Below, in pieces: positions 38,017 to 50,334 of a DNA stretch of 64,000 bases. A program made the translations under genes and the position numbers. This DNA is from Methanospirillum hungatei (GTDB lineage: Archaea > Halobacteriota > Methanomicrobia > Methanomicrobiales > Methanospirillaceae). The stretch's first letter is position 1, and the number at the start of each line of letters is the position of its first letter. The stretch covers positions 1,116,001 through 1,180,000 of the forward strand of contig NZ_CP077107.1 in the NCBI RefSeq assembly GCF_019263745.1, read 5' to 3'. A model generated the notes under the pieces. It made no database searches. It was given only the letters and a program-made list of their open reading frames with translations, and had not been told where the DNA came from.

Positions 38017-38646
38017 TTACACAATCCGCTGCCCGGTGAAATCGAGGGTTCCAGTAACGCCCGCTGCAGTGATAACTTTGGTTCCCTCAAACTGGTCTCC
38101 GGTATATTGAGCATTTACATTCATGCTAATCGGATAGGTTTGTCCGGCATATTTCACCATTGCATCATCAGAGGTAAGGGTAAGGGTACCGTCTGGGGAT
38201 ACCTCACCAGATACTGTGCCTTTTACTTTGATAGTCCATCCTTGTTCTATGAATTTATATGCAACTGTTTCGGATACTGAGTTGTCATGGGATACCGTGT
38301 AATCAATATCAGCTCCTCCCTCAAAGAGAGAGCCATCAACTCCGGTTGTCTTCTTCATAGTTGTATCCTGATATGATCCAACAATCTGATCTGGAGAGAA
38401 TGATTGGGTGTTCCCGGCAACCAGGGTGTTTTGTGGTTCGTTTGCAAGGTTTACATGGAGACTGCCATCTGAACCAACCGTTCCTACTCCATCAGGAAGT
38501 TCAAACGGGAGTGATGATGGGAGCCCGGGAGTGACCGGATCTCCAGCGTATTCAAAGGGATCTGCATCGGCTGATACAGGGAATATAATGAATGATACTA
38601 GTACCATTCCTATCAGAACAGCACCAATGTTGATTTTTATGGTCAT
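38017..38646 (-). CDS. Secreted protein of unknown function
   Basis: A 209-residue exported protein. Start at ATG 38646 is fixed by AGGAGG seven bases upstream. The signal peptide (core IGAVLIGMVLVSFIIFPVSA) is followed by a mature part rich in Gly, Ser, Thr and Asp (FELPDGVGTVGSDGSLHV, VSGEVSPDGTLTLTSDD), which looks all-beta and ends TGTLDFTGQRIV. Family not recognised. Monocistronic, in AT-rich surroundings. Confidence 0.7.
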   Translation of the reverse strand: MTIKINIGAVLIGMVLVSFIIFPVSADADPFEYAGDPVTPGLPSSLPFELPDGVGTVGSDGSLHVNLANEPQNTLVAGNTQSFSPDQIVGSYQDTTMKKTTGVDGSLFEGGADIDYTVSHDNSVSETVAYKFIEQGWTIKVKGTVSGEVSPDGTLTLTSDDAMVKYAGQTYPISMNVNAQYTGDQFEGTKVITAAGVTGTLDFTGQRIV

Positions 38647-39080
38647 GATGAATCCTCCTTTCCGGACATGAGATCTGAACTCATGTTCTTTACTCCCTCT
38701 TGCGGAAGTACAGGTATTAATCAAACCAATGCGGTGCAATTCTAAAAACAGAAGAATTTTACTTATATATTAAAAGAGGAAAGTAAGTAGGTTGTAGTGC
38801 AGACTGTATTATTTATATATTAGTAATTGACACAAAAATAACATATTAATAAATGTTTTTAGATAAAATTGTACCATTACCTCCTTTATCTAAAAATATT
38901 ACAATTATGAATTGAATTTTTTAATGCAAATATTAAAATCAATTAAATAGAGGAATTATTTTATCAACCAAAAGTATATGAGCAGGTATTTGTAGTGTCA
39001 GGTGATAATTACTACTCATATCAGAATGCAGCAAAAACGGCTGTTTCGGATATATTCCTGGTCCTTTGTTTCTTATTACA

Positions 39081-41693
39081 ATGCCACAAAATAACATCGT
39101 TTCAAAAACCTGTTATGTATGCCAAAATACATCTCATCATCTGAAAAGAGATAAATTTCAACATCCTGATTCATTGGGTCCATCAAAAATCGTAGACCTT
39201 GATGGCCGGCCAAAAGAATTAACCGAATACATCCTCAAAAATCTCCTTGAAGTATGCCCTCATTGTGGATATGTTGCAGAAAATATCGAGAAACCTACAT
39301 CAATAAACCGGGAATATCTTCGATCACCAGAATACGTGAGTCTGTGTCACACTGAGGGGGCAGAATCTCCTTATCTTTTTCTTCGTGCTGCGTTCATCAA
39401 GCTGGGAGAACAAAACCATGAAAAAGCCATAACATACTATGTATATGCTGCCTGGTGTGCTGACAGCCGATTTCAACATGAATTAGCGTTACAATGTAGA
39501 AAAAATGCAATATCACTAATTTTTTCAAACAACAAATCATTTGCAGATATTTCATCGAAAAAATGGGTGCAGGTTATTGATTTAATCAGGCGATATGGCG
39601 ATTTTCAAGCAGTGATAGACCATTGCACCACCCTTCTGCCTATTGCCGGGCCTATCCTTACGCTTGGGATGGAATACGAACTTATTTTAGCGAAAAATAA
39701 TGATCGTGAGTCGCATACGAATATTGACGCAGCCATCGTCATCCAGAATAGGGCACGGACCCACTCATCAACCGAAAAATATGTCATTGCTGGAAAAGTC
39801 TATTCCATCGAGGAAAATGGATATGGAAGTGGATGGGCCTGGATTTCTGAAACCAGAACATTAATCCTTACTAACTACCATGGCTCGGCCATTGAAGTAT
39901 CAGGTTCTGTTACCATCCGAATTGACCAGGCAGATAACCATATCACGAGTCCTCATGGTCCGGCTATTCATGTCTTAAATGGGGATCTGAAAATAACCGG
40001 ATATGGGATATTATCCATCAAGGCAGAAGAACAAGGAATTTTTGTCTCATCCGGTTCGCTGGAAGTCCAACAGTCAGTGCTGGATATCCGGACAAAAGGA
40101 AATGGAATGCATGCGTCCGGTACAATCTACCTGACAAATAACACAGTAATTGAGATTCATTCCCGATCAAACGGTTTGATATCCGATTCTGGAAACCTAC
40201 ATTCAAACCTTGGAACGGTTTTAAAAATATTCGGAGAAGAATCCGGCGTTATTATATCCAGAGATGTTACTATTTCAACCGGTCTGTACCACATAGAATC
40301 CTCGCAGGGCTCTGGAATACAAATCCATCATGGTTCACTCTCTCTGGCAGACTGCCTTCTGGATATCATAAGTAGTGAAATATGTATCCATATCAAGAAC
40401 GGAAATCTGGTTTTTAATGTAATGAAATGTAACTTGCACGGATCATGCGGGATTGTGGTTCATGGGATGAGTTCCTTTGAAAAAAGTCTGCTTACCATAT
40501 GCGGAGATGAAACCGGATTATTTGTCTCAAGAGACGCGAAATTTACAGGAGGACGCTTTGAATGCTCAGCAAAAAATGCTTTGTCGATCAAAGGAAGTCT
40601 ACAGATAGCAAATTCTAATATTACTGCATCAGGAGAAAATGCAATCTACTCTGGTGGTGATTTTAAATTAGCCGGAGGAATTCTTATTCTCAATGGAGAC
40701 ACGGTCATGCATGTCTCCAACAATTTTGAGATATCTGATGGACTCATCATCGGTGTTGGAAAGTTGCATGGAATTATTATAGAAGGATCATACACACAAT
40801 CCGGTGGCGACATTACGATATCCGGGGAATCTCATGAAGGAATGAAGATCTCTGGAAAAGAAATGATAATGACACATGGTATCCTCAAGACAAACGGGAG
40901 GACTTGTGGGTTGGAAGTATCAGGGAATGTCTTTTTATTAGGATTTACCTTATTTGCATCAGGAAACATTGGATTTTCTGTGCAGGGTTCTCTGAAGATG
41001 GATAAAGGAGAACTAAACGTCACTGGTGAAGAGATAGGTATTTCTCTAAAAGGAGGCTCCCTCCATATTGGATCCACACTCTCAGTAATTATTACCGGAA
41101 ATACCGGGATTTACGCAATCAATGATATTGAAATTGCGGGATCATCCTTTCATGTTTCTGGTCAATTCGCAGGAGTGGTTCAGGAAAAAGGAAACCTGAT
41201 TATAAATGGCGGCGCTATAGACATTTCTGCGGAAGAATACGGTATTCTGGTTCAGTCAGGCTCCATGAATATCCAGGGAGGGATCATTACAGTAATGAAT
41301 ACCCGTATGAAAGATTTGGGAGGCTCCGGAATTGTTGTCGCTCAGGGAAATTTTCATGCAAACAGTCTTTTGACAGTAAACGGCGAGAGCATCGGGATAT
41401 CTGTTCCCAATGGAACAATTGCGATTCAACAGGGATCCCTGAAAGCCTATGGGTATCGTTCAGCGATTATCGGAGAATCATTGCATATTCGAGGATTTTC
41501 TTCGCTTACTGCATACGGTAAAACGCAGGGTGCGATAATACTTACAAATAAAGAATTCCTGGATGATGAACGGATACATTTCTGGGCTGGAACCTCGGAA
41601 AAAACTGCAATCGAAGATGTATATAAGGATCAGAGATATGTGCATGCCTATACAGATGAACCAAGAATTCCAGATAGCATGGCTGAAGATTAA
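39081..41693 (+). CDS. Zinc-ribbon plus giant beta-helix repeat protein
   Basis: 870 residues in three parts. Residues 1-75 carry two Cys pairs (CYVC 11-14, CPHC 59-62) like the DUF2225 zinc-binding type. Residues about 75-200 are helical (AITYYVYAAWCADSRF). From about 235 the motif GSGWAWISETRTLILTN begins some 25 irregular coils of 20-23 residues, each with a G-I/L-x-V/I-S-G pattern (SGSVTIRI, NGDLKITG, SGSLEVQQ, GGDFKLAGG), typical of carbohydrate-binding beta-helices. There is no signal peptide, so this is apparently a cytoplasmic or non-classically placed protein. I use ATG 39081; a TTG 15 bases upstream is less likely. Confidence 0.75.
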   Translation: MPQNNIVSKTCYVCQNTSHHLKRDKFQHPDSLGPSKIVDLDGRPKELTEYILKNLLEVCPHCGYVAENIEKPTSINREYLRSPEYVSLCHTEGAESPYLFLRAAFIKLGEQNHEKAITYYVYAAWCADSRFQHELALQCRKNAISLIFSNNKSFADISSKKWVQVIDLIRRYGDFQAVIDHCTTLLPIAGPILTLGMEYELILAKNNDRESHTNIDAAIVIQNRARTHSSTEKYVIAGKVYSIEENGYGSGWAWISETRTLILTNYHGSAIEVSGSVTIRIDQADNHITSPHGPAIHVLNGDLKITGYGILSIKAEEQGIFVSSGSLEVQQSVLDIRTKGNGMHASGTIYLTNNTVIEIHSRSNGLISDSGNLHSNLGTVLKIFGEESGVIISRDVTISTGLYHIESSQGSGIQIHHGSLSLADCLLDIISSEICIHIKNGNLVFNVMKCNLHGSCGIVVHGMSSFEKSLLTICGDETGLFVSRDAKFTGGRFECSAKNALSIKGSLQIANSNITASGENAIYSGGDFKLAGGILILNGDTVMHVSNNFEISDGLIIGVGKLHGIIIEGSYTQSGGDITISGESHEGMKISGKEMIMTHGILKTNGRTCGLEVSGNVFLLGFTLFASGNIGFSVQGSLKMDKGELNVTGEEIGISLKGGSLHIGSTLSVIITGNTGIYAINDIEIAGSSFHVSGQFAGVVQEKGNLIINGGAIDISAEEYGILVQSGSMNIQGGIITVMNTRMKDLGGSGIVVAQGNFHANSLLTVNGESIGISVPNGTIAIQQGSLKAYGYRSAIIGESLHIRGFSSLTAYGKTQGAIILTNKEFLDDERIHFWAGTSEKTAIEDVYKDQRYVHAYTDEPRIPDSMAED

Positions 41694-41973: not shown

Positions 41974-42345
41974 ATGATAGAGAGAAGGGGATTCGGTACA
42001 GACACACGTATCATATCCCATCTGAACCCTCATGTGGAGAAAATGCTCCATCAGGCAGATGAGCTGAAAATGGACGGGAAATATGAAAAAGCAATTGAGG
42101 TATACGATCAGGTCATAACCATAGATCCACGGAATGCCAGGGCATTTCATTCACGGGCAAATGTTCTAGATATGATGGGTCGATTTGAAGATGCTATTTC
42201 AAGTTATAATGACGCTATTGTCTGTGATCCACTCAATGCCGAAACATGGTATAATAAAGGATTGACTTTGAAGAAAATCGGAAAACGAATTGAGAGTTTT
42301 GCCTGTGTTCAACGCGGACTCTATATCTATCTCGGAACTGAGTGA
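41974..42345 (+). CDS. Small TPR protein
   Basis: 123 residues, mostly three TPR units: VEKMLHQADELKMDGKYEKA, then ARAFHSRANVLDMMGRFEDA, then AETWYNKGLTLKKIGKRIES. A protein-protein adaptor by family; partner unknown. No ribosome binding site precedes the ATG, and TATA-like AACTATAAATAAAA lies about 30 bases upstream, so the message may be leaderless. Methanospirillum-type genomes are rich in such proteins. Confidence 0.75.
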   Translation: MIERRGFGTDTRIISHLNPHVEKMLHQADELKMDGKYEKAIEVYDQVITIDPRNARAFHSRANVLDMMGRFEDAISSYNDAIVCDPLNAETWYNKGLTLKKIGKRIESFACVQRGLYIYLGTE

Positions 42346-44611: not shown

Positions 44612-45769
44612 ATGAACCCTGACGATATAAGACCTCATACTGATCAAAACGAATCCAATACCAAGGTTCAGGACTATTTTTCTGCCCGAATCGTGCTTCA
44701 TGAGATAAGGGGTGATCTCTACCAGTATATCTGTACTCCACAAAGACGCAAATCCTTAAAAGCAAAAATTTCAGAGAAATTGTCCGGTCTCAAATCTTTA
44801 ACCTCAACACATATTTTTCTTGGCCTTGACAAGACTGATACAAATACTATTCAGGATTTTTCAAAATTATTGACTCAGTACGAAGAATTGCTGGATGATG
44901 CTCTTGAAGCGATTAATTTCGGAAAAGAGCAACAAATAATCGAATCGCTCGATAACGGACCACTCCAACACACCCATCTGAAGATGAACGAATATCTCTC
45001 AATGGGAACGAAAGATACACAGACTGCCCAGTCTGTAAGTCATGATGAAACTCTTCAGGCACAGATACGTGCCCTTTTTACCATTATCGAAATAATCGGT
45101 GCCGTTGCAGTTCTATTTCCGGGAGTTTTTGTTTCGATTGGTGTCCCTGCTACCTTTGCCAAATCTCTCACCATGCTCAATCAGGTGCAAAAGATATATC
45201 CTGGTGTCCAGCTAGCCCTTGACCGAAAGAATGAGATCATGATACTGGCAGGAACTATGGCAGCTTTTGCGGGTGGCATGCACAAAAACGCCACCCATTT
45301 GTTACAGCAGATGGCAAAGGATGAAAATATACAGAATATTACGGTTGTTGATGAGAGCGGTAAGACCATCTCTGCGTCAGAACTTGTTCAATATGCCCTT
45401 GATATTGAGACCGGCCATGACATCCTTCATCAAACAATACCGGAAAGAGAACAGAAAAAAAGCCAAACTGGACAATCACCCCCATTATCAGCAGATCATG
45501 ATATGTTACAAAAACTCATCAGACTCATGGAGACGGTTACAAATCCTGTTGGGGAATCACTGAAAAACGTCGATAAAATAGCACAGCAGAATATTCAGGC
45601 CAGGTTGGAGGATGCTTCTCGGGGGAAAGAGTTTATTTTTCAGATCCCCATGACACTGAGCGACGTGGGAACCAGTTTCGGGACTGATATAAGTGCAAGG
45701 ATGAGAGAATTTGCGAAAAAAGTCAATTCAATAACAGAAAAAGAAATAACGGATAATAAAAAATTTTAA
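44612..45769 (+). CDS. Unrecognised protein with central hydrophobic hairpin
   Basis: 385 residues, family unknown. The first 150 are charged and helical (LKAKISEKLSGLKSLTSTH). A hydrophobic stretch of about 35 residues follows (FTIIEIIGAVAVLFPGVFVS, then IGVPATFAKSL), and another helix EIMILAGTMAAFAGGMH. The C-terminal part is polar and helical (VKDxx-type, ending ITEKEITDNKKF). Probably membrane-associated through the centre. Stands alone between the ABC pair and the secreted protein at 45882. Confidence 0.6.
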   Translation: MNPDDIRPHTDQNESNTKVQDYFSARIVLHEIRGDLYQYICTPQRRKSLKAKISEKLSGLKSLTSTHIFLGLDKTDTNTIQDFSKLLTQYEELLDDALEAINFGKEQQIIESLDNGPLQHTHLKMNEYLSMGTKDTQTAQSVSHDETLQAQIRALFTIIEIIGAVAVLFPGVFVSIGVPATFAKSLTMLNQVQKIYPGVQLALDRKNEIMILAGTMAAFAGGMHKNATHLLQQMAKDENIQNITVVDESGKTISASELVQYALDIETGHDILHQTIPEREQKKSQTGQSPPLSADHDMLQKLIRLMETVTNPVGESLKNVDKIAQQNIQARLEDASRGKEFIFQIPMTLSDVGTSFGTDISARMREFAKKVNSITEKEITDNKKF

Positions 45770-45881
45770 AGATCAGGTGATAATTACTAATATTACGATC
45801 ATCACTCCTCACCACTGGACCCAGAATTTTCACGAAAACTCAATTCATAATATTTTTCTCCTGACCATCTCTATTCATGGT

Positions 45882-47291
45882 ATGCACGATATGATTCGGA
45901 TCGCAGCATTCCTGATTATGATAATCCCTTTCAGTTTTTCTTGTATGGCTGACATTACCGGAATTGACGAAAATACAACAATTCAGGCATTCCAGGAAAA
46001 CGGGTTTGAGATAGGTCTTGGAAAAATGCAGACCGTTGATGCAATCGGTCTCTATGATGCAGGAATTACGCCATCCTGCTATGCAATTAACCCAAGTGCA
46101 CCATATATGTCTTTTAAAGTTCCAAAAGCACCAGGACAAACCAGTAATAACACAATATCAGATTCACCGATCAATCCGGATAACAAAGGACTCTGGCTTG
46201 ATTACCATACACGTCCGGATGAGGCTTTTGTCTATATTGGGACAACTCCACCTGAGTGTGATTATTTCAGTTATTGTGGGTATATAGCCATGAGATATTT
46301 CCCGTTAACAAAGGAAAAAAGCCGGGTGTATGCAAGTCTTGGAGATGCAATCAGTCTTGCCAGGCTGAAAAAAGAACCTGCATACATGAATGGTGTCTTT
46401 TCAAAACCGATCATTATCATCTTTACCGCTGATCTGAACGCAGATGCACAGGCAAGAACAGCTCTTACCACTGCCGGATATCCGGAGGATATCATCCATA
46501 CCCTCGTGATTCCGCATACCCTTGTGAACCTGGGACTTGAATCAGAAACCGATACCCTCACAACCCTTCATCGGGTAGCGTTTTTCACAAATCAAGAAGA
46601 AGGAGATGCATACATGAATAGTACTCCGGGAGTTGTATACAGGCTAACCCCGGAAAATGAGGAAGAGCCTTCATTTATTGAAATCCCTGACCTAATCCCA
46701 CGAGGAAATGGGGATGTACATGAATTGGATCTGATGGATGATCTGAAAGAACTTCGCCAGGCCATTATTGACCGGTACGACGGATACCAAGCAGATGATA
46801 TGGAGACCAAGATCTGGATATTTGAAGGGTATGATGCCATCCAGAGAGGAATAGATGCTTTGGGCGATATCAGGGATACCGTCTACCTGAATACCACAAA
46901 TACCATCCTCGGAGACAAAACAGGGGAATGTATCATAGTATACGGGGTAAATCATGTCGCAACCGGAAAGGCGACCTATGCAAATTTTGGTCTGTATGGC
47001 CTTGCTGCCCTCAATGGCATACAAGGGGTCTCTAATCATGACTATTCAGGGACTGCAGAAGAGTATTTGCCAGGAAACCCAAATGCACAATACCTCTATG
47101 TTGCAAAAATAAGTCGTGAAGAAGATGGAAATCCATCAACCTCAGTGATTCCATCTGGAGTTGGAGCACATGGAGTTGAACCTGATGAACCCTGTTTTAT
47201 CGGATTCAGAGTATATGTAGAGCCTGAAACATCAGTAGGTCCGGCCTGGAATGAGATAGTCTACGACCGGGCAATAAAAATAACCCCCTGA
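45882..47291 (+). CDS. Large secreted protein of unknown function
   Basis: 469 residues beginning with a signal peptide (MIRIAAFLIMIIPFSFSCMA; the ATG at 45882 or 45891). The Cys in SFSCMAD could be a lipobox. The mature protein is rich in aromatic and acidic residues with blocks GLWLDYHTRPDEAFVYIG, IIIFTADLNADAQARTAL, GECIIVYGVNHVATGKATY and EPCFIGFRVYVEPETS. An upstream in-frame ATG at 45777 would place 35 residues before the signal peptide, so I reject it. No family recognised. Confidence 0.65.
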   Translation: MHDMIRIAAFLIMIIPFSFSCMADITGIDENTTIQAFQENGFEIGLGKMQTVDAIGLYDAGITPSCYAINPSAPYMSFKVPKAPGQTSNNTISDSPINPDNKGLWLDYHTRPDEAFVYIGTTPPECDYFSYCGYIAMRYFPLTKEKSRVYASLGDAISLARLKKEPAYMNGVFSKPIIIIFTADLNADAQARTALTTAGYPEDIIHTLVIPHTLVNLGLESETDTLTTLHRVAFFTNQEEGDAYMNSTPGVVYRLTPENEEEPSFIEIPDLIPRGNGDVHELDLMDDLKELRQAIIDRYDGYQADDMETKIWIFEGYDAIQRGIDALGDIRDTVYLNTTNTILGDKTGECIIVYGVNHVATGKATYANFGLYGLAALNGIQGVSNHDYSGTAEEYLPGNPNAQYLYVAKISREEDGNPSTSVIPSGVGAHGVEPDEPCFIGFRVYVEPETSVGPAWNEIVYDRAIKITP

Positions 47292-47565: not shown

Positions 47566-48192
47566 ATGGCAATACATGAACCGATAACCAAAGTCAACCT
47601 GGACAGAATCACCAATGGTATTTTTGCATTTACCATGACGCTCCTTGCCCGGAATATTGTAACTTCTGATCAGTATTTGCAGGCATCCCAGATCACGGTT
47701 GAAAATTTTGTTGATGAAACGATTTTTTCAATTATGGATTTTTTGGGCGTTTTTATCCTTTTTGCCATGTTCTGGATGTTATTCTTTCAGATGTTCCACC
47801 GGATGAAAACCTTTGATTATCATTTCTTACACGTCCATATGCTTGCCCTGATGGCTATTGTTCTTATCCCTTTTTCATCATCGTTCAGTAATTTGGGAAA
47901 TAAAAATTACATCTTTACGGATTATTTTTTCCAGATCAATTATTTCGTACTCGCAATATTACTTGTCTATCTCTGGTACTATGCACATTCACATCCATTC
48001 CTTCTTGACCCTGATTTGACTCCCACCGAAACAACCCTTCTCCTGAAAAAATGCTTTGTCCCCCTTTTTGTAGCAGCATTGGGAATTTTCTGGATATATG
48101 CCAACCTTCCGCTCATTGATATCCTGTATTTTGTTCCGTTTATCATACTGGGAATTTTTTTCAGAAATTCACCGGATAATCCGATTGAATAA
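47566..48192 (+). CDS. TMEM175-like integral membrane protein
   Basis: 208 residues with about five to six membrane segments. The first helix, DRITNGIFAFTMTLLARNI, resembles the RxxxFSDGVFAIAMTLL signature of TMEM175/DUF1211 potassium-channel proteins, but FSD is replaced by ITN. Later segments: FLGVFILFAMFWMLFFQMF with His-Arg after it, and ILPxx helices near the C-terminus. Known relatives form K+-selective pores; whether this one does with the altered motif is uncertain. Confidence 0.65.
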   Translation: MAIHEPITKVNLDRITNGIFAFTMTLLARNIVTSDQYLQASQITVENFVDETIFSIMDFLGVFILFAMFWMLFFQMFHRMKTFDYHFLHVHMLALMAIVLIPFSSSFSNLGNKNYIFTDYFFQINYFVLAILLVYLWYYAHSHPFLLDPDLTPTETTLLLKKCFVPLFVAALGIFWIYANLPLIDILYFVPFIILGIFFRNSPDNPIE

Positions 48193-48405: not shown

Positions 48406-50334
48406 TCAAAGATTTGATAATATCCGGTAATTTTCTTTTGGAATGATTATCTCAAACCTGACACCCTGCCCATGAGCACCATTCTCAACAATCCGAATAT
48501 CATTATATTCAAGAACCTCTTTGATGAATGCCATACCAATGCCAGTCCCTTTCCCATATCCTCTGCAAAATATCTTTTCCTTCTCATTATCCGGAATTCC
48601 AATCCCATTATCCTGGTATATAAGGTGACCTGATTCTCCCTCTTCAAAGGACACGATTATTGTATCTGCGGTTATTCCGTGACGGATGGAATTATCGATA
48701 AGATTGTAAAAAACCTTTTTTATAAGTCGATCAGCCTTTACATCGAGATCATTGAGGGAATGAATGATGGTAATCTTTCCGGCGAATTCGCTCTGACTCT
48801 GATCCAGAATCTCCCCGATATTCTGCCATACCGATCCATCTTCTCCGATTTTTTCATAATCATATGTAAATGCAAGGAGCATAGATATTCGTTTCAGCAC
48901 ACGACTGGCTTTTTCAGTATAAACAGGAATTTCAGATATATCTTCAAGCTCAGATATCAATCCCAGGTATAACTGGAGAGATGTAACCTGGTTCAAAACA
49001 TCATGCCTGGTTATCTGTGAAAGCTGGGTTAGTCTCTTATTTGCCTTGGCAAGCGATTTTTCTACCTTTTCACGAAGCCGAAGTTCAGATTCGAGGGTGG
49101 TTTTCTGGGTCTCAATTTCAGAGATATATTCATTGATGCTGGCCACCATCTGATTAATACTTTGCCGAAGCATCTCTGTTTCACGAAGACCAGTGGCCCG
49201 GATCGGGTGAGAAAGAGACGAAGAGGCGATAATTCCAATATCCTCTGTCATCATGGTTATAGGTCGGGAAATATAAATCGAGAGATATTGTGCAATAAGC
49301 AGGCCTAATATCAAAGAAATAATAGTGATGACAATGAATCCTATCTGGTAATAAAAAATCACCGTCTCAATTTTTTCTTTGCTTAATACTAGAATACCAA
49401 CAACACTAAGTTCTGATCCAGACAGTGACCTGACGGTTGAGAGATTGATATATTGAATCGAAATGACCTGGTTTTTCTTCGGATTATTAAAAAAGAAGGA
49501 TTTTTTTGATTCAAATGTCTGGTTTAAAATAGTATGCAGGCTTTCATTATCAAAAATGCCGGTAACCGAAGACAATGTCTGACTTTTATTTTGTATCCAA
49601 TACGTCTGTTTTCGATATGCTTTATCATACACCTCTACATGAACAATATTCGGGATGTTCATGGCTTCTTCGGTTATATCCTTGAGCGACGAAACCATCG
49701 TTTTATGCATCTTTGAATACTTATCATTCCGAAGGCCGAGCTCGAGGATATACTCATGATCATCTGTGGGGTAGTATCCATATTTCCAGTACAATTTCGA
49801 ATCATTATAATCCCTTATCCAGCGATCGGATTTGAACTCAGTTCCATTAATAAACTGAGATAGAGATGTATAAAAATCAGGATATTTTTTAAAATCCAAA
49901 TTTAAATCTCGTGCATATGTTGTAAACTCTACGATTCCGTTCTTGTTTATCATGAATAATTCAATCTCACCAGGAACACCGGATGAAATGTTCTTTTTAA
50001 GAGAGATGAGATCAATTGACGAGGGATCATTCCGGTTCTTTTGGTATGCCTCCAAAAATGGGATCATTCGATCCTGGAGAAGGAAATCAAACTGAGCATC
50101 GAAATTCTCAATGCCATATTCTGTCAAAATGACAGATGAAATGAAGGTTTTTTCTGCCTGGAGCTGTGAGTCGATAAATTCATTTGATACCTGATGAATG
50201 GAAAATATATAGAGCGTTGATGAAATCAGGACTATAAAAATGAAAAAGATCAAGGTAATTACAAGAAACAACCGTGTACGGTATGACGGATAATCATCCG
50301 GCTTACTTCCTGATACTGGTTTTTTCTCTGACAT
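48406..50334 (-). CDS. Membrane sensor histidine kinase
   Basis: 642 residues. Helix 1 (about 18-40, LFLVITLIFFIFIVLISST), an extracytoplasmic Cache-like sensor of about 270 residues, helix 2 (IGFIVITIISLILGLLIAQ, about 330), a HAMP linker (YISRPITMMTEDIGII), then a coiled coil. The phospho-acceptor block is QITRHDVLNQVTSLQLYLGL, followed by an ATPase domain with N-box NLIDNSIRHG, G1 DNGIGIPDNEKEKIF and G2 GKGTGIGMAF. All catalytic residues are present. No response regulator gene is adjacent. Signal unknown. Confidence 0.88.
   Translation of the reverse strand: MSEKKPVSGSKPDDYPSYRTRLFLVITLIFFIFIVLISSTLYIFSIHQVSNEFIDSQLQAEKTFISSVILTEYGIENFDAQFDFLLQDRMIPFLEAYQKNRNDPSSIDLISLKKNISSGVPGEIELFMINKNGIVEFTTYARDLNLDFKKYPDFYTSLSQFINGTEFKSDRWIRDYNDSKLYWKYGYYPTDDHEYILELGLRNDKYSKMHKTMVSSLKDITEEAMNIPNIVHVEVYDKAYRKQTYWIQNKSQTLSSVTGIFDNESLHTILNQTFESKKSFFFNNPKKNQVISIQYINLSTVRSLSGSELSVVGILVLSKEKIETVIFYYQIGFIVITIISLILGLLIAQYLSIYISRPITMMTEDIGIIASSSLSHPIRATGLRETEMLRQSINQMVASINEYISEIETQKTTLESELRLREKVEKSLAKANKRLTQLSQITRHDVLNQVTSLQLYLGLISELEDISEIPVYTEKASRVLKRISMLLAFTYDYEKIGEDGSVWQNIGEILDQSQSEFAGKITIIHSLNDLDVKADRLIKKVFYNLIDNSIRHGITADTIIVSFEEGESGHLIYQDNGIGIPDNEKEKIFCRGYGKGTGIGMAFIKEVLEYNDIRIVENGAHGQGVRFEIIIPKENYRILSNL

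Follow-up and report, generated by a model that had tools for sequence, protein, structure and literature searches.

The archaeon Methanospirillum hungatei carries a gene whose product joins an N-terminal, presumably zinc-binding module with tetratricopeptide repeat (TPR)-like helices to a long right-handed beta-helix and lacks an export signal. The gene lies in the 64,000-nucleotide stretch analyzed here (the window; bases 1116001-1180000 of the 3,393,136-base contig NZ_CP077107.1, genome G000 of our genome sample). The same domain order recurs in other genomes of the order Methanomicrobiales together with conserved neighbors, and in more distant relatives the helix is fused to a kinase-type domain. 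Because of these conserved partners and the kinase fusion, the helix is most likely the intracellular part of a signaling or scaffolding module and not a secreted lectin. In its specific form, which we hold at about even confidence, our proposal is that the protein is a cytoplasmic beta-helix stave with two docking ends, working with a TPR protein and a membrane protein as a signaling or scaffold module. In the following, G numbers denote sampled genomes and L numbers extracted loci, g27 is a genus label, and f1 and f5 are family labels.

A first-pass annotation of this stretch had singled out as unusual the combination of a beta-helix of a normally secreted type with a double CxxC domain, TPR-like helices, and no export signal, and had named a missed upstream signal peptide or an artificial fusion of two genes as the ways in which it might be mistaken. 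The reading frame is unbroken on the forward strand from either TTG at 39066 or ATG at 39081 to its end at 41693. ATG 39081 is the start of the family, M1 being invariant in the alignment of 13 full-length proteins (A1). Twenty-four open codons precede it, and the sole further ATG, GTG, or TTG among them is TTG 39066. Since at most 5 codons can thus be added upstream, a hidden signal peptide is excluded, and this explanation was rejected for want of space in the frame. Within the first 60 residues, the maximal 19-residue hydropathy mean ranged from 0.20 to 0.96 in all ten proteins inspected (the window protein and nine relatives). Judged by hydropathy and frame length, and not by a dedicated signal-peptide program, neither an export signal nor a hydrophobic N terminus is present, in agreement with the first-pass annotation. 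The G+C content of the gene (41.0%) is close to that of the window (41.2%).

Every element of the combination was recovered (Table 1). Structure prediction, proposed in the first-pass annotation as a check, yielded helices at residues 97 to 205 (pLDDT 69 to 89 in this model) and a beta-helix from about residue 260 to 858. Ten-residue blocks between residues 271 and 820 were modeled at a predicted local distance difference test score (pLDDT) of 79 to 98, with a single exception at 64. The periodicity of aliphatic residues was strongest at 23 and that of glycine at 6, 28, and 23. PF14262, the Cthe_2159 family, matched residues 293 to 460 (E 6.7e-11; 42.4 bits versus a cut-off of 25.8), a match that is marginal across the family, 3 of the 13 orthologues reaching an E value of 0.05 or better. 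In VIA-align, the model superimposed on the Cthe_2159 structure 4phb with a Z score of 20.3 and a root mean square deviation (rmsd) of 2.6 over 207 aligned residues; the phage Pam1 tailspike, an unrelated protein of the same fold, gave a Z score of 24.3 and an rmsd of 3.1 over 314 residues. Foldseek returned no match at E <= 0.001. PF14262 proteins are usually exported, although export does not strictly define them, and the family match, the predicted structure, and the superposition on 4phb substantiate the earlier description of a beta-helix of usually secreted type.

Conservation along the helix is uneven. Among the 13 proteins, invariant residues other than glycine number 13.8 per 100 in residues 236 to 300, 1.5 in residues 371 to 640, and 7.9 in residues 723 to 862. 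When kinase-fused relatives are included (19 proteins), both ends still hold most of the kept nonglycine positions and the middle keeps mainly glycines; the positions of the first-rung motif G..Y...G.GW.W...R.L.L..YHG..I...N are kept in 18 or all 19 of them. It is this concentration of invariant residues at the two ends of the helix that suggests a stave docking at both of them.

The N-terminal module comprises residues 1 to 95, which carry both cysteine pairs (CxxC...CPxCG) and would bind zinc through them, and the predicted TPR-like helices, modeled with block pLDDT values of 69 to 96 over two models. Residues 1 to 100 were modeled at pLDDT values of just 33 to 52, and residues 211 to 258 form a linker of low model confidence. 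Judging from sequence, the module appears to be a divergent DUF2225 domain. The Pfam model of this domain, PF09986, did not match the window protein itself, and 1 of the 13 orthologues matched under the cut-off (E 0.009). Locus L046, with N module and helix in one chain, passed (26.4 bits; cut-off, 21), as did the stand-alone copy L092 (31.9 bits); L085 narrowly missed (20.2), and L094, another aligned relative, was not matched. In an alignment of 12 copies (A3), C59/C62 occur in all and C11/C14 in nearly all, and RP, AW, and R..D..RR positions are also common to the copies; this list of DUF2225 motifs was drawn up from A3 itself. Comparison of the module with solved structures gave weak profile matches, the best to a designed TPR protein (E 0.0044), and Z scores of at most 9.9, which by the tool's own note denote a common helical arrangement. 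The double CxxC and the TPR-like helices of the first-pass annotation are thus both borne out, the former by invariance in all 13 proteins and the latter by the predicted structure. Archaeal copies of the module without a beta-helix occupy frames of about 160 to 540 codons, mostly 220 to 310. One stand-alone DUF2225-like gene lies behind an ABC-2 permease gene (L085, 4884-8695) and another, in a different genome, adjoins an AAA ATPase gene (L092, 3-2308); these neighborhoods are a possible lead to DUF2225 function.

In the order-wide sample of 199 genomes, 55 matched some part of the protein. The close full-length form is present in 13 (G000, G172, G168, G053, G137, G185, G057, G045, G009, G060, G151, G072, and G104), the 12 others being 46 to 60% identical to the window protein. 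These proteins are co-linear, free of internal stops, and spread over 7 genera and 4 families, which argues against a chance fusion; the artificial joining of two genes considered in the first-pass annotation was therefore rejected after a search for the same domain order. G048 contains a further full-length form at 26% identity. In the phylum sample of 392 genomes, 27 matched, with all full-length matches inside the order. The distribution is patchy: within the window's genus, the full-length form was present in 3 of 8 genomes sampled. G151 and G104, of family f5, have copies that share 87% identity with the copy of G137, of family f1, which suggests transfer between these families. The ratio of nonsynonymous to synonymous substitution rates (dN/dS) over the whole gene was 0.15 to 0.52 in five pairs, and the pair with the lowest value has a dS close to 2; together with the full-length orthologues, this places the gene beyond chance. 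A scan of a contig collection with an alignment query found nine loci, from Methanolinea, Methanoculleus, Methanospirillum, Methanoregulaceae, Methanocorpusculaceae, and unplaced Methanomicrobiales, Methanoculleus sp. Afa-1 being one carrier known by name, and a scan of it with a single query found no relative; these two scans are also the bacterial coverage for the fusion. G403 gave a weak match (E 8.1e-4) to the helix part in an 804-codon frame.

Several other origins were considered and rejected. A paralogous family in the window's genome is contradicted by its one PF14262 place and one N-module place. As to phage or plasmid cargo, no relative was confirmed in viral contigs (searched with A1 patterns) or plasmids, a phage collection lying outside the search. 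As to a defense system, no PADLOC family was found for the gene, and its TPR partner has one weak TPR match.

Two partners accompany the gene. A counterpart of the 123-residue TPR protein encoded downstream of it in the window adjoins it in all 13 carriers, at distances of 280 to 2567 nucleotides in 12 and 450 nucleotides in G168, the larger gaps containing another gene; the TPR gene lies on the opposite strand in G151, G072, and G104 and on the 5' side in G060 and G168. In 11 of the 13 carriers, a polytopic membrane protein, mostly of about 400 residues, is encoded no more than 1.4 kb away; three copies counted have 10 to 12 hydrophobic segments, and one of two full copies scanned matches DUF308. 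Order-wide, this membrane subfamily scored 468 to 707 bits in 11 genomes and 320 plus 135 bits, in two pieces, in G172, all of them carriers. It is thus found in 12 of 13 carriers and none of the 186 other genomes, whose best score was 227 bits. Because the profile was built from the gene's own neighbors, carriers score high by construction, and the independent evidence consists of the low scores in noncarriers and of the unlinked copy in the window's own genome, which lay outside the profile. The G072 copy was outside it as well, but is the same protein as the included G151 copy. In 11 genomes (G168 excluded), the identity matrices of gene and membrane partner were correlated (r 0.79; reached in 0 of 2000 permutations).

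In genus g27, 6 of 25 genomes matched the protein, 5 of them with a kinase fusion. At all four of the loci L047 to L050, a helix without the N module carries a C-terminal HATPase_c_2-like domain, recognized by Pfam in L048, and also in L046, and in L047, L049, and L050 by a local profile made from the same proteins. All four loci have a STAS gene in the same orientation 6 to 27 nucleotides downstream, and next to it stands a SpoIIE gene whose product has seven or eight hydrophobic segments; for these neighbors, Pfam was run on the genes of L048 only. L046 encodes a single chain of 1023 residues that contains N module, helix, and kinase, and the adjoining SpoIIE gene is cut by the contig end. 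The sixth match, G048, has N module and helix and no kinase. Here (L045, 8382-13058), a half-length relative of the membrane protein is encoded upstream of the 26% identical gene and a PEGA gene downstream, overlapping it by 4 nucleotides.

In L048, the kinase domain can be aligned with RsbW (6m36; E 1.5e-4) and retains the positions E...N, DxG, and GGxG, which we take to be kinase motifs, and the neighboring STAS protein aligns with SpoIIAA structures, best with 4hyl (E 8.7e-9). The NCBIfam models for RsbW and SpoIIE match the g27 proteins far under their own cut-offs, and the model of the anti-sigma antagonist superfamily passes. Since an RsbW/SpoIIAB-type kinase is fused to the helix and STAS and SpoIIE genes adjoin, the helix in g27 probably has the regulatory role in a partner-switching kinase. 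The ATP-binding domain on the same chain argues for an intracellular helix in these relatives, and by homology with them the window protein would be cytoplasmic as well. Conserved neighbors and kinase-fused relatives are the strongest argument for this location.

Combining these observations, we propose that a Cthe_2159-type beta-helix of about 600 residues might serve as a rigid intracellular stave. One docking end would consist of the zinc-ribbon/TPR module of DUF2225 type together with the conserved first rungs, and the other of the conserved C-terminal end, which takes the kinase in g27. The stave would act with the 123-residue TPR protein and, in most carriers, with the polytopic membrane protein, and would thus be membrane linked; physical contact with both partners is presumed. 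In the g27 relatives, the helix would regulate the partner-switching kinase that it carries. In the window's lineage, the kinase-less form would signal or scaffold through protein docking, and its C-terminal end may dock a partner in trans. Such a partner is conceivable because the genome has 5 SpoIIE and 19 HATPase_c_2 places, none of them in the window.

Several observations weigh against this proposal. Neither the window protein nor any of its 12 close orthologues has a kinase domain; none of the SpoIIE and HATPase_c_2 places just mentioned lies near enough to fall into the window, the nearest SpoIIE gene being about 27 kb beyond the end of the gene; and the kinase-fused relatives belong to a single genus and are 28 to 37% identical over parts. 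TPR genes are common and have paralogues nearly as similar as the partner (166 versus 175 to 217 bits), and the correlation between the identity matrices of the gene and this partner is weak (r 0.35; reached in 27 of 2000 permutations; 11 genomes). The carrier G168 has no membrane-subfamily match above 123 bits. In the window's own genome, the membrane copy (C1:3151781) lies about 2.0 Mb along the contig from the gene and is 57% identical to that of G053, 56% to that of G060, and 33% to that of G172 from the same genus; because it is unlinked and closer to other genera, it may be a partner of separate descent.

The window does contain a histidine-kinase-like gene (48406-50334); a STAS gene, sought with a small local profile only, was not found among its open reading frames. 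Elsewhere in the genome, a second unusual kinase fusion joins an RsbW-type HATPase_c_2 domain to a GNAT acetyltransferase domain behind it, with a SpoIIE gene about 3.7 kb off (C1:24399-25913; L077, 6400-7914). What is apparently a full partner-switching set lies at C1:1320031-1324744 (L078, 6032-10745), where genes for an RsbW-like protein (137 codons), a STAS-like protein (by local profile), and a 703-residue SpoIIE protein stand close together. A SpoIIE match at C1:445600-446160, in a 189-codon frame with one internal TAA stop, is probably a broken copy.

The main rival, unlikely in our estimate, is a bactofilin-like element, in which the helices would stack by their ends or their sides to give a filament that lies in the cytoplasm, is attached to the membrane, and shapes or organizes the cell, with the zinc/TPR module and the partners recruiting clients. 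Bactofilins, which are found in the cytoplasm of bacteria, form membrane-associated filaments (PMC12448750), and archaeal homologues, the halofilins, are described (PMC12186497). Conserved ends with a variable middle would suit end-to-end contacts, and the membrane partner goes with the gene. However, no bactofilin family was found at E <= 1, Pfam listing PF14262 and a weak UPF0547 only. The bactofilin domain is several times shorter than this helix, a C-terminal kinase as in the relatives would hinder plain end-to-end stacking, and a protein that shapes the cell would hardly be expected to occur in so few genomes (13 of 199). That bactofilins are not among the 50 structural matches listed has no bearing on the question.

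It is tempting to speculate that methanogenic archaea internalized a helix that binds carbohydrate polymers and made it the sensing and scaffolding stave of a partner-switching system. In this variant, likewise unlikely, the helix would sense, between its conserved ends, a ligand that is intracellular or associated with the membrane and would relay this to a kinase. The kinase is fused in cis in g27 and would act in trans in the window's lineage, by way of the TPR protein and the membrane protein.

A role in tuning archaellum-driven movement seems improbable. The idea derives from the single DUF2225 phenotype found, the lowered motility of Leptospira biflexa after inactivation of LEPBIa0550 (PMC12236494), and from the gene of G168, which adjoins a response regulator and T2SSE/T2SSF genes. 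This T2SS neighborhood occurs at 1 of 13 loci, the neighbors at the other loci being only partly named. Archaellin is present in 12 of 13 carriers versus 143 of 186 noncarriers (Fisher p 0.30), so that a link by co-occurrence was rejected, and none was found in the carrier G137 or in the relatives of G030, G048, and G054.

Still less probable is a surface carbohydrate-binding protein exported by a nonclassical route. Binding to celluloses and polygalacturonic acid has been described for PF14262 proteins (PMC6712302), the Cthe_2159 structure superimposes on the model, and the PEGA protein encoded next to the G048 gene has a lipoprotein-like start. Surface carbohydrate binding thus suits the family but not the anatomy, given the missing export signal and hydrophobic N terminus, the four invariant N-terminal cysteines, and the ATP-binding kinase-type domain on the same helix in relatives. 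Finally, an artificial or decayed fusion without current role, to which the sparse spread and the absence of the full-length form from 5 of 8 sampled same-genus genomes might point, is negligible in view of the domain order kept without internal stops in 13 genomes, the dN/dS values, and the conserved neighbors.

Table 1. Features of the beta-helix gene and its constant neighbor (positions within the window)
Feature	Position	Strand	Basis
Gene for zinc-ribbon/TPR-like module and beta-helix, 870 codons, no signal peptide	39081..41693	+	Open reading frame, family alignment
Two cysteine pairs (C11/C14 and C59/C62), presumed zinc ribbon	39111..39266	+	Invariant in 13/13 full-length proteins
TPR-like helical part (residues 96-210), putative divergent DUF2225 module	39366..39710	+	Model, alignment, structure comparison
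Poorly conserved linker (residues 211-235)	39711..39785	+	Alignment, model
Conserved N-terminal cap/first rungs (residues 236-300)	39786..39980	+	Kept across 19 aligned proteins
Right-handed beta-helix (residues 260-858), about 26 rungs estimated from the 23-residue period	39858..41654	+	Model, periodicity
PF14262 (Cthe_2159) match	39957..40460	+	Pfam
Conserved C-terminal end of beta-helix (residues 723-862); kinase domain follows in relatives	41247..41666	+	
123-residue TPR protein, constant neighbor	41974..42345	+	Pfam, locus comparison

Other genes of the window were noted in passing. A TMEM175-type potassium channel is encoded at 47566-48192 (PF06736; E 2.4e-12). The adjacent genes at 44612-45769 and 45777-47291 match no Pfam family over the cut-off, the former narrowly missing it with 4HB_MCP_1, and no PADLOC model at E 0.01. 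On the reverse strand, 38017-38739 encodes a protein in which a stretch resembling a signal peptide was noticed by eye; neither Pfam nor NCBIfam gave a family for it at E <= 1.

Among known systems, the window protein shares fold and profile with Clostridium thermocellum Cthe_2159. It differs in its length, about 600 helix residues versus a solved chain of 248, and in lacking a signal peptide while bearing a zinc/TPR module in front and, in relatives, a kinase behind. A fold familiar from secreted proteins thus seems to be reused for internal signaling or scaffolding. The N module resembles DUF2225 in its cysteine pairs, its RP and R..D..RR positions, and its helical part; it differs in that PF09986 does not match the window's own copy and in its fusion to a beta-helix, whereas two relatives (L046 and L092) pass the PF09986 cut-off. 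The DUF2225 literature is sparse, and the fusion ties this domain to a defined partner set. The literature examined, mostly non-subscription and including passages of PMC9674854, PMC12236494, PMC2887360, and PMC6712302, contained no description of this architecture; new are the constant TPR neighbor, the carrier-specific membrane subfamily, and the fusion of helix and kinase with SpoIIE and STAS.

With bactofilins and halofilins, the protein would share the use of a beta-helix inside the cell; it has no sequence match to them, is far longer, and is multidomain. It would add a further kind of cytoplasmic archaeal beta-helix besides halofilins. The three parts of RsbW/SpoIIAB-STAS-SpoIIE partner switching stand together at L047 to L050, but the g27 kinase, unlike that of RsbW/SpoIIAB systems, bears a beta-helix of about 600 residues, and the window gene has no kinase. 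In bacteria, partner-switching kinases have been studied thoroughly and control sigma factors, which archaea are not known to have. The beta-helix-kinase fusion in an archaeon offers a concrete way to learn which signals the partner switches of archaea respond to and what they act on.
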